IMG/VR virus record: IMGVR_UViG_3300013122_000007
Coordinates: 1 to 44,529 of that record
Length of the DNA stretch: 44,529 bases
Direction: 5' to 3' (one strand)
DNA from: a virus
In this document: piece after piece, positions 10,107 to 13,766 of the stretch
Layout: each line of letters begins with the position of its first letter
Position numbering within the stretch: position 1 is the stretch's first letter
Program-made: the position numbers and the translations under genes
The notes under the pieces: model-generated
What the model was told of the DNA's origin: nothing
What the model saw: only the letters and a program-made list of their open reading frames with translations
Database searches by the model: none

Positions 10107-10778
10107 TCAGCTCCGGTCAGGAGTCGGCCACTGAATCACCGACAGCGCTTCAAGGTCCTGGGCCTCTCGGACCATTTCCTTTAGGCCCCACGCGATCCGG
10201 TACTGTTGGGCAGTGAACTCTCCTACAGCGACTCCTAGCTCGATTACTTGCCCAGGCGTCATGTTGTAGGTCGAGTTACTGGCTGCGCGGAACGCCAATA
10301 CGGGCTCAGAAACACCTTGGTCTTGAAGGACCATTGCGGTGGCCACCAAGCCATTGATGTTCGCCAAGTCGCGTTCGTGGCGGACTTGCACGACATCCTG
10401 ACTTCCGTCAGGGAATGTATAAGGCATCCCCCGGCGCTCCGCTTGCACCCTCCACTCGTCAATCTGAACGCTCTTCTGCCATTTCAGGTCTTCAAAGGTC
10501 GGTGGAGGATTTAGCGACGCTATCGCCGTAGCAACCTCGGTTGTGTTGCTGTGGAACTCCCCGAGCGCAAACTCACTATCTTGGTTGCAACACGCCTGTT
10601 CCCACTCTGCGATTGGCGCCTCTGCCACAATGCGTTTATGTAGACTTTCGCTTGTGTCATCCGCGTTATAACTAATGACTCGCGCCACAGCTAAAGCCCG
10701 ATTATCGCTCGGGATATAAACAACCGTGACAGTTCGTTGTTGTTTGTTCTGGTACTCAATCAGGTATCTGAAATCCAT
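10107..10778 (-). CDS. Tail-fibre-associated DUF4376-like protein
   Basis: Of the 223 residues, the second half has the usual DUF4376 sequence pattern: VQIDEWRVQAERRG, FPDGSQDVVQVRHERDLANI, FRAASNSTYNMTPGQV and a final WPTP. These proteins lie at the ends of tail-fibre operons and may be fibre components or assembly factors. The start overlaps the Hint-domain gene by 23 bases. The DNA here looks visibly more A/T-rich than the flanking structural genes, as expected for exchangeable receptor-binding modules. Confidence 0.75.
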   Translation of the reverse strand: MDFRYLIEYQNKQQRTVTVVYIPSDNRALAVARVISYNADDTSESLHKRIVAEAPIAEWEQACCNQDSEFALGEFHSNTTEVATAIASLNPPPTFEDLKWQKSVQIDEWRVQAERRGMPYTFPDGSQDVVQVRHERDLANINGLVATAMVLQDQGVSEPVLAFRAASNSTYNMTPGQVIELGVAVGEFTAQQYRIAWGLKEMVREAQDLEALSVIQWPTPDRS

Positions 10779-11844
10779 AACCTATATCTTCAACTTTCAT
10801 CACTGAGACGAAGCGCTCCCTGTTTATCTCAGGAAGCTCGTAGTCGTATTCCATGTACACCGGCTTCAGTTCCTCGCACGCTGACCAACTAAACTGAGTC
10901 CAATCAATGAGCGATTCCAGACGAGGCAACTCACCAATAACTAAAAAGCCATCCACGAAATAGCTCGCGTGGTCCTTTAGATACAAGTGATACAAGGGCG
11001 TAGACGGGCAGGCCTCTACCACGCTCCAGGTGGTCTCTTCCCAACCATCCTCTTTAGCGAAGGAGACCGCTGTTCCTTCCAGTCCAGTGAGGTCAATCGG
11101 CTGCTGCCCGTTTAGACCAGGACCGAAGTTCTCGGCGGCTTCAAGACTCCACTGCTGCATATCTCGGGTGGCCCAAAACTCACGGCCAGTAGACGGGTCT
11201 TTAGCCCAAAGACAATGTTCCCCGGACGTCTTACACCGCCCCCCTTCCAAGGCGAGCAGCTTCCGTGACCCCAGTGTTGGCAAACGAACCCAGTCGACCT
11301 CGCTCTCACCAAAAGGTGTTTTCACGCGGTCTCCAGGCACTACTTCGTCTATCCGTTTGAGACTGCCATCAGCCATTGACACCAGAGAATCCCCGGTGAA
11401 GCAGCAGCTCGGTGTAGACAGGTATAGGTAGACGCTCCTGTCGACGTATGCGCTGCCAGCAGAGTTTGTGGCTGTAACCCTGTAGACCCCGGAGAGGCTC
11501 CGGTCATAAGCAGTTCCGTACAGATAGTACTTAGTGTTCGACTGTTTCTGCGCAGTGATATACCCGCCACCGCTTACAAACTTCCCTGAAGTCGTCGGAG
11601 AGGTTCCTCCGACACTGTAATTCAGGTAGGTGTATTCGCTGTAGTTCTGCTCGCTAACAAACGAAATGGTGGGAGGTGCAACACTGCTCTTACCGTATAA
11701 GTTGCTCATTGAAATCGCACCGCTCGGCACCCCAGCAAGGGTGCGAACGGCGGTCTCGTTGAGGCTGATTTCGGTAGTTGCAGCTCTTCCGAGTTCGGTG
11801 TTCACCGCACTCATGGTGAGAACACCGCTTGTAGGGAGGGCCAT
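10756..11844 (-). CDS. Tail-fibre-module protein with a Hint (intein-like) domain
   Basis: A 362-residue mosaic. Residues 1-52 (LPTSGVLTMSAVN ... ISMSNLYGKS) are a short N-terminal block common in phage tail or fibre proteins. Residues 55-145 look like an Ig-like domain. At 147 begins CCFTGDSLVSMADGSLKRID, a textbook Hint/intein block A, with TSGEHCLW (206-213) as block B and YHLYLKDHASYFVDGFLV (285-302) as the last Hint strand. The usual C-terminal HN dipeptide is replaced by VIG, so splicing looks unlikely; N-terminal autocleavage at Cys147/148 remains possible. About 60 residues follow. It is coupled to the S74 fibre gene upstream (TAATG) and may process or crosslink the tail tip. Function inferred. 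Confidence 0.82.
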   Translation of the reverse strand: MALPTSGVLTMSAVNTELGRAATTEISLNETAVRTLAGVPSGAISMSNLYGKSSVAPPTISFVSEQNYSEYTYLNYSVGGTSPTTSGKFVSGGGYITAQKQSNTKYYLYGTAYDRSLSGVYRVTATNSAGSAYVDRSVYLYLSTPSCCFTGDSLVSMADGSLKRIDEVVPGDRVKTPFGESEVDWVRLPTLGSRKLLALEGGRCKTSGEHCLWAKDPSTGREFWATRDMQQWSLEAAENFGPGLNGQQPIDLTGLEGTAVSFAKEDGWEETTWSVVEACPSTPLYHLYLKDHASYFVDGFLVIGELPRLESLIDWTQFSWSACEELKPVYMEYDYELPEINRERFVSVMKVEDIGYGFQIPD

Positions 11845-13766
11845 TATGCGACCCTCCGCTGCTCGTCAATTACAGCATCCAGCTCCGCTTTCAGCTCTTT
11901 GATGGCTTCGATCAGAAGCCCGACCATGTTTCCATAGGCCACGGAGAGCATGTCATCGCCGCTGACTGCCTCGGGAAGTACCTTTTGAACTTCCTGCGCG
12001 ATAACTCCGGTCTGACGCTCGCCTTCCCGGTCAAGTCGGTCGTAGGTGACCCCGCGCAGTTGGAGGACTTTCTCCAGCGCATTCGGGATGACCTGGATGT
12101 TGGTCTTTACGCGAATGTCCGAGTAAGCCGTTACGTTGCCAGACGTCCAGATGCCTCCAGCCAGCCCAATGGCTGCCCCCGGTGTGCCTGATGAACAGAA
12201 CACGATCTGATGCCCACCTGCCATGGTGCCGCCGGTGGTGTTGTTCGTGTGCTTATAGGCCATTCCATACAAGCTGCCGAAAGTCGAGCCGTCGTCTGGG
12301 ATGGCGTAACCGGTGCCCATCGACCACACATGGCCGATCTTGGTTGAGTCATAGATACCGTACATACCAGCTGAGCGGCTGGCTGCGTCCACGCTGATCT
12401 TGCCAGTGATGGTGTCACCAGCTTTGGCGATGGCCGTCGGGTCGGTGATGTTGATGTTTGCTGTGCCGTTAAACGACACGCCATTGATCGTCCTGGCGGT
12501 GGCCAGCTTCGTGGCAGCAGCAGCTGTCGCTCCGGTGTCCAGTTTGGTGGCCAATCCAGCGCTCAATGCTGTGTTGTCCGCTTTGAGGGCGAGCTGGTCA
12601 GCTACCTGAGCCTGGAAGGACTGAAGCGCGGTCTTGTCAGCTTTCGTGGCGAGCCCGTTAGTCAGCGCTTGGGTATCCGCCTTCACGGCCAACCCATCCA
12701 CCAGAGCCTGGACGTCGGCCTTGCCTTGAAGCGCCTCGTTCATCTCTATGTAGGTGACTTTGTAGTCCAACGCCTCCTGCACGGCTGTGCTAATCGGCTT
12801 CTGCAAGTCGCTGGTGTTGTCGACGTTACCGAGACCGAGGTTAGAGCGTGCAGCCGTCTTGTCTGTCAGGGCAGCGAGGTTTTCCGAGTTCTTGGCGAAG
12901 TCTGTGAAGTCCGCGCCGGTAATCGCTTGGACGTCCTGCTTGATCTGCTCGGTGGTCGTCTTGGCCTGTTCTGCCGAGGCATTCGCCGCTTCAGCATCCG
13001 CCGCCGCAGCTTCAGCAGCGCTTTGAGCCGTCTGAGCGGCCCCTTGAGCTGTACTAGCGCTGGCCTCCGCGTTGATGGCCCGCTCAAGGGCTTGGTTGGC
13101 GGTGTTCTGTGCCTGATTAGCGGTAGCTGTGGCTTGTAGAGCCGTGGTGTTGGCGCTGTTCGCTGTAGCCTTCGCTTCGTTGGCCGTGGTTACTGCTGAG
13201 TTCGCGGTCGCCACAGCGGCGTTCGCTGTGTTCTGAGCAGACCCAGCCGTGGAGACTGCGTTGTTGGCTGTTACCACGGCACCGTTCGCCGTACTGGTGG
13301 CGGCATTTGCTGTTGAGACTGCCGAGTTCGCCGTAACAACCGCACCGTTGGCCGTAGCGATAGCCGTGTCGGCCTTCGTTTCAGCGGTCTGTGCGATGCC
13401 CTTGGCCTCGGTGGCAATCGATCTGGCGTTGTCCGAGACAGCAAAGGAGACGTCGGACTGGTCCTGCGCCTCTTGGATAATCATGAACACCTGCTTCCAC
13501 ATGAGGTCCAGGAGGGCCTCGTCGAGGACGGAGTCGTTCTTGAAGTCCACCAGAGCGTTCTGCTTTTCGGTGTCACGCTCGATCTTGAGTAGCTGCGCGG
13601 AGGTGGGCGCAGTAGAGAGGGAGATGGAGTTGGGGCTGAGCCAACTGAAGGTGGCCGGTTGGCCGTTGAGGGTGACCTTGACGTCATCCCTGTAGATGTA
13701 GTCGAAGGGAACGGCAAACACTTTCGTGATGCCGTCCCCCTGATACTCAACGAAGGAAAGTGCCAT
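11844..13766 (-). CDS. Tail fibre with T7 gp17 N terminus and S74 chaperone
   Basis: A 640-residue fibre. Residues 1-110 (MALSFVEYQGDGITKVFAVP...) are the T7 gp17-type adaptor that fixes the fibre to the tail. Then come 13 consecutive TANxAxx heptads (138-228) and further alanine-rich coiled coil to about 275, a stalk. The C terminus is a peptidase-S74 intramolecular chaperone starting SDIRVKTNI (S549, K554) with GVTYDR and TGVIAQEVQKVLPEAV; it should trimerise the fibre and cut itself off before S549. The last residues (KELKAELDAVIDEQRR) form the usual terminal coil. It recognises the host surface, probably LPS, but the receptor is not predictable. Confidence 0.93.
   Translation of the reverse strand: MALSFVEYQGDGITKVFAVPFDYIYRDDVKVTLNGQPATFSWLSPNSISLSTAPTSAQLLKIERDTEKQNALVDFKNDSVLDEALLDLMWKQVFMIIQEAQDQSDVSFAVSDNARSIATEAKGIAQTAETKADTAIATANGAVVTANSAVSTANAATSTANGAVVTANNAVSTAGSAQNTANAAVATANSAVTTANEAKATANSANTTALQATATANQAQNTANQALERAINAEASASTAQGAAQTAQSAAEAAAADAEAANASAEQAKTTTEQIKQDVQAITGADFTDFAKNSENLAALTDKTAARSNLGLGNVDNTSDLQKPISTAVQEALDYKVTYIEMNEALQGKADVQALVDGLAVKADTQALTNGLATKADKTALQSFQAQVADQLALKADNTALSAGLATKLDTGATAAAATKLATARTINGVSFNGTANINITDPTAIAKAGDTITGKISVDAASRSAGMYGIYDSTKIGHVWSMGTGYAIPDDGSTFGSLYGMAYKHTNNTTGGTMAGGHQIVFCSSGTPGAAIGLAGGIWTSGNVTAYSDIRVKTNIQVIPNALEKVLQLRGVTYDRLDREGERQTGVIAQEVQKVLPEAVSGDDMLSVAYGNMVGLLIEAIKELKAELDAVIDEQRRVA
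13083..13355 (-). repeat. 13 degenerate 21-base repeats (TANxAxx heptads)
   Basis: The DNA encodes thirteen in-frame seven-residue units with T-A-N/G-x-A at the same places. Codon use varies between units, so the repeat is old or selected at protein level. Unequal recombination here could change fibre length. Confidence 0.75.

Follow-up and report, generated by a model that had tools for sequence, protein, structure and literature searches.

A Hint domain in the predicted tip protein of a T7-type tail fibre with an S74 chaperone

S74 chaperones are a well-known route by which phage fibres trim themselves. The locus described here raises the question of what a Hint domain may do in the protein encoded directly behind such a fibre. 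It belongs to a T7-like virus of 44.5 kb, as judged by a T7-type tail fibre and a terminase, and the whole stretch that was analysed (44,529 nucleotides; IMG/VR record IMGVR_UViG_3300013122_000007, positions 1 to 44,529) is referred to as the window; all window features given below lie on its minus strand. A 640-aa T7-type tail fibre (11844..13766) is followed by a 362-aa fibre-tip protein with a Hint domain (10756..11844; ORF and profile), here called the tip protein, and by a 223-aa DUF4376 protein (10107..10778). The ATG of the tip gene overlaps the stop codon of the fibre by one base (TAATG), and its end is overlapped by the DUF4376 gene over 23 bases. Pfam recognizes a T7 tail-fibre N terminus in the upstream fibre (6.2e-20) and a Peptidase_S74 domain at its C terminus (6.4e-19, residues 549-601), which corresponds to the S74 intramolecular chaperone at 11847..12122; the preliminary description of this DNA, which had assigned the tip gene to a tail-fibre module with an S74 neighbour, is thus borne out. 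By analogy with phage S16 (PMC7917993), the fibre is expected to be cut at TAY/SDIRVK. At 53%, the G+C content of the tip gene lies below that of the window (60%), which would fit a module that has been exchanged.

Identification of the Hint domain and its residues

Residues 148-306 of the tip protein (10927..11403) were identified as a Hint (Hedgehog/intein) domain by profile, AlphaFold model and structural alignment. The Pfam matches to Hint (8.7e-5) and Vint (1.2e-4) are both under Pfam's own cut-offs, and single-protein scans of viral contigs (P0001, P0002) returned no relatives, which were found with alignment queries. A leave-out profile, built from six more distant fibre Hints with the window and Providencia proteins excluded, scored the tip protein at 108.8 bits (E-value 2e-29 for 1e6 sequences); the best of 2000 shuffles reached 4.3 bits, and none of the remaining window ORFs was listed. 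When the Hint family profile was compared with solved structures, inteins were matched (PI-SceI, 8e-9). The two halves of the protein were modelled separately, and the model of the Hint half (residues 141-362) has pLDDT values above 90 over most of the Hint core. Its top Foldseek match is a BIL domain (1.8e-8), and VIA-align gave Z-scores of 17.7 for a BIL domain, about 13-14 for inteins and 13.5 for Hedgehog. A Hint domain had been proposed in the preliminary description, with structure prediction named as a check; profile, model and alignment to BIL, intein and Hedgehog domains agree, and the presence of the Hint fold is confirmed.

Model residue 8, which is Cys148 (codon 11401..11403), superposes on Cys258 of Hedgehog and on residue 1 of inteins and BIL domains, and it is therefore the candidate nucleophile. 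The domain start had earlier been left at Cys147/148; Cys148 is the first Hint residue, and Cys147, ruled out as nucleophile by alignment and superposition, is its -1 neighbour, a position held by Ser, Thr or Cys in fibre relatives. The previously noted histidine block TSGEH is likewise the block B motif with His210 (position 10, codon 11215..11217), corrected in that Ser207 (position 7, codon 11224..11226) stands in the Thr place, where the phage fibre family has Ser or Thr. Cys1 is invariant (15/15 aligned Hints) and the block B His is found in 14 of the 15 rows. In inteins, His B:10 and Thr B:7 work in the N-terminal splice reaction, and a role is likewise described for F:4 (PMC4031507). 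At the place of the intein Asp F:4 the tip protein has His286 and its fibre relatives have Leu.

Block G reads YFVDGFLVIGE and lacks the terminal His-Asn of splicing inteins, as had been pointed out before. With the +1 nucleophile and a C-extein also missing, the tip protein is not a splicing intein, nor is it a BIL domain of type A, defined by His-Asn and a non-nucleophilic +1 residue; this combination is found in contig L146 and in Yersinia phage fHe-Yen9-02. The terminal His-Asn is missing in the window, Providencia, Achromobacter and other A2-family phage fibres and present in marine, jumbo-phage and tape-measure Hints. An invariant Cys1 and a near-invariant block B His next to a variable splicing end suggest that it is N-terminal cleavage or transfer that has been selected for. 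The domain is followed by a C-terminal tail (residues 307-362; 10759..10926), delimited by alignment and AlphaFold, which starts from the motif IDWTQFSW, carries a conserved D(Y/W)..(F/W) and continues with low-confidence helices.

The anchor domain and its position behind S74 fibres

The N-terminal half consists of an anchor domain of three short helices (residues 1-54; 11683..11844), common to tip proteins of many phages, and of an Ig-like domain (residues 55-147; 11404..11682), with which the mature tip protein is predicted to end. The Ig-like region of the preliminary description was modelled as an Ig-like fold with weak to moderate support (Foldseek best E-value 1.2e-3, VIA Z-score about 8). 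Foldseek returned no useful match for the 54-aa anchor, and no gp38 relative was found among solved structures by profile search. The anchor opens many phage tail genes and is encoded at 198 viral contig loci; in the 80 that were fetched, it is continued in most cases by an Ig-like domain or a stretch rich in glycine, and in no case by a Hint. Several Hint-less anchor-Ig proteins are 148-161 aa long and end where the window Hint starts. In Rhizobium phage Pasto, which its terminase gene relates to this virus, the protein at the corresponding place (gp53) joins the anchor to a glycine-rich domain.

Neighbours of 61 non-identical anchor genes were classified by an S74 sequence signature, and for four of the fibres the assignment was confirmed with Pfam. 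Twenty-seven anchor genes lie directly after a fibre with the S74 signature, and 16 after a fibre whose end coincides exactly with the S74 cut site (NVTAYGT-stop, where S74 fibres read NVTAYSD.RLK). S74 is found within 3 kb of seven others; nine have none nearby by signature, and two lack upstream sequence. As a control, 336 other ORFs at the same loci were considered, of which 12 lie behind such a fibre. In S16, self-cleavage of S74 bares the docking surface of the tip adhesin gp38 (PMC7917993). Since anchor genes typically stand right behind S74 or S74-cut-ended fibres, the window protein is in the gp38 position, and this position together with the anchor domain places it at the tip bared by S74 cleavage. 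It is thus a fibre-tip protein by position, and we infer that it docks there.

Relatives with and without a Hint domain

The protein QPB11246.1 of Providencia phage PSTNGR1, annotated as hypothetical, shares with the tip protein the anchor, a middle domain (~95 aa), the Hint and a C-terminal DW..F, and its gene overlaps an S74 fibre; it differs in being only 38% identical and in having no long C-terminal tail. The viral contig L089 matches PSTNGR1 at 93.7% identity over the fibre and as far as codon 53 of the tip gene; the two then diverge, and identity (94.4%) resumes from the second gene onward. The tip gene of L089 in the same slot encodes 150 aa and is Hint-less. Downstream of the tip gene, a small lipoprotein-like gene (L002:6957-7109, L089:5450-5617) is swapped along with the tip module; its product may be a receptor-matched exclusion lipoprotein or a spanin of the Rz1 type.

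Close Hint relatives were found at fibre C termini in Achromobacter phages JWF and 2-1 and in contigs L007, L011 and L151, and also C-terminally in a J-type tail-tip protein (L009) and in one protein of a Rhodospirillales genome (L044). Fibre-type Hints are uncommon in bacterial genomes: among 289 genomes of the class of L044 there was one strong match, in L044's own genome. The JWF protein, annotated as 'Hom_end-associated Hint family protein' (PJWF_00028), has the same Hint subtype and a C-terminal DY..W at a fibre C terminus, whereas its Hint is fused to the fibre, with Asn-Cys repeats before it, a radical-SAM gene after it and no anchor. The dN/dS values of the Achromobacter fibre Hints are about 0.1-0.3, indicating purifying selection, which argues against decay; in this set the Hint is conserved about as much as the fibre part, or more, and the most variable stretches are in the fibre part.

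Asn-Cys repeats directly precede Hint Cys1 in the Achromobacter phages, L011, L044 and L151, and a radical-SAM/SPASM protein is encoded one gene later. The order of these cassettes (L003:5170-8673, L012:5077-8595, L010:5083-8586, L011:2-3529, L044:5506-8776 and L151:5080-8559) is a protein with Asn-Cys repeats and C-terminal Hint, then a gene encoding about 230-340 aa, then the radical-SAM/SPASM protein. The last are homologous to each other (39-80% identity), with SPASM above the cut-off in all four that were scanned, and their nearest curated relatives include peptide maturases. L007 has the repeats, and its contig ends before the downstream radical-SAM position; the window, PSTNGR1 and L009 have neither repeats nor radical-SAM gene. 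The cassette suggests a peptide-type modification of the fibre end followed by Hint trimming.

A distant Hint with His-Asn ends the collagen-like fibres of many Erwinia, Dickeya and Yersinia jumbo phages. In Dickeya phage AD1 (L152:3017-4456) and Yersinia phage fHe-Yen9-02 (L153:3017-4459), His-Asn is followed by only about 11 residues, with Thr or Val at +1; in Salmonella phage Sen-NF (L155) the +1 residue is Met. In the marine-type lineage L145-L149, the anchor domain known from the window runs directly into a distant His-Asn Hint, and the protein is again encoded immediately downstream of an S74 fibre. At L146:274-6501, the 1839-aa S74 fibre, in which a Hint-like internal stretch was noted by eye, is followed by an anchor-Hint protein of 233 aa with a canonical TNEHP and a His-Asn-Ala end. 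On the tree, window-type and marine-type anchor-Hints fall in different parts, with modest deep support, so the pairing of anchor and Hint probably arose twice. A minor-tail protein of the tape-measure type (L144:2923-6711) carries a PT-HINT near its C terminus with a His-Asn end, and processing of the tape measure by it is possible.

Possible roles of the Hint domain and comparison with known systems

To our reading, which we hold with slightly better than even confidence, the tip protein takes the gp38 position, docks by its anchor on the S74-trimmed tip and loses its Hint by self-removal, while the anchor-Ig part stays. The 54-aa anchor would dock on the fibre tip bared once the S74 chaperone cuts off, with the Ig-like domain as the mature distal part. 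Cys148, aided by Ser207 and His210, would turn the 147-148 peptide bond into a thioester (N-S shift), which water or a small thiol would resolve with release of Hint and tail, leaving a mature tip of about 147 aa, the size of the natural Hint-less relatives. Self-removal is favoured by the Hint fold and its superposition, the retention of Cys1 and block B His, the dispensable His-Asn and the C-terminal placement of Hints, and further by the S74-linked anchor genes, the S16 analogy, the 148-161-aa relatives, the swap between L089 and PSTNGR1 and the purifying selection in Achromobacter phages. Against it stand the replacement of Asp F:4 and an anchor unlike the S16 gp38 attachment domain, as well as the marine L146 protein, where the anchor runs straight into the Hint, so that a cut would leave only about 66 aa. 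The 9/61 anchor genes with no S74 fibre nearby by signature also speak against self-removal and tip docking.

It is also conceivable, but unlikely, that the Hint cuts inefficiently and is retained as a distal, possibly receptor-contacting part of the tip. The slot does hold a gp38-like glycine-rich adhesin elsewhere (Pasto gp53) and is swapped between close phages (PSTNGR1 and L089), yet mere retention fits poorly with Cys1 and block B His being kept across divergent phages and with an Achromobacter Hint no less conserved than the fibre part.

Improbable in our estimate is a transfer of the thioester, in which the end of the anchor-Ig part would be passed to an amine, thiol or hydroxyl of a fibre subunit or of the host surface, giving a covalent link in the manner of Hedgehog or BIL domains. 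The intact N-terminal chemistry with no C-terminal splicing residues, as in Hedgehog, and the BIL domain as best structural match agree with it, and transfer would explain the use of a bare anchor in L146, where the non-Hint part is the anchor alone. However, no acceptor-binding domain was recognized beyond the short D(Y/W)..(F/W) tail, no acceptor is known, and hydrolysis is simpler. That the tip makes its own thioester, and that the covalent bond to fibre subunit or host surface locks adsorption or tip assembly, appears decidedly improbable. Covalent attachment of the tip, one of the options raised in the preliminary description, is a minority view here.

A decayed intein or selfish insert with no phage role is very improbable: the profile relatives do include genuine inteins, carried by phage terminases and by RecA proteins, but endonuclease, C-extein and His-Asn are missing, the domain recurs at fibre C termini, and relatives are under purifying selection. 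PT-HINT domains free C-terminal toxins in polymorphic toxins, and the tail of the tip protein exceeds those of its relatives in length; still, its release as an effector (residues 307-362) by a pretoxin-style Hint is scarcely credible, with a tail that is short in relatives and of low confidence in the model, and no C-terminal Asn for cutting.

If the Hint is active, its self-removal or another of its reactions would add a new step to the maturation or attachment of receptor-binding proteins. It would be carried out by a second, unrelated self-processing fold that stands beside S74 and is found again at the C termini of fibres from several unrelated phages. PSTNGR1 with and L089 without the Hint form a natural close pair, which makes the question directly testable. 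Hint domains in phage proteins are already annotated (JWF record; BFVD names); what is new is the coupling of Hint with an S74 fibre and a tip anchor. In our literature searches on Hints of phage tails, no description of a Hint in fibres came up, and the papers retrieved by Hint/phage searches concern terminase, ribonucleotide reductase or other inteins.

Among known systems, BIL domains share the Hint fold and are the best structural match, differing from the tip protein by its lack of terminal His-Asn; according to a reference title in PMC4031507, BILs can cut without a C-terminal nucleophile. Like the Hedgehog autoprocessing domain, the tip protein keeps Cys1 and T/SxxH, has no C-terminal splicing residues and would act on its N-terminal part; unlike in Hedgehog, no sterol-binding region was recognized, and the likeness is one of fold. 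The gp38 adhesins of S16/T2-type phages (PMC7917993, PMC12892980) have a polyglycine-II glycine-rich domain, which Pasto gp53 also has and the window protein (9% Gly) does not, and Trp prongs in the attachment domain (PMC7917993), whereas anchor residues 1-54 contain zero Trp and show no detectable similarity to that domain of S16 gp38. What the window protein shares with gp38 is a gene directly behind an S74-matured fibre and an N-terminal attachment part followed by a variable C-terminal part.
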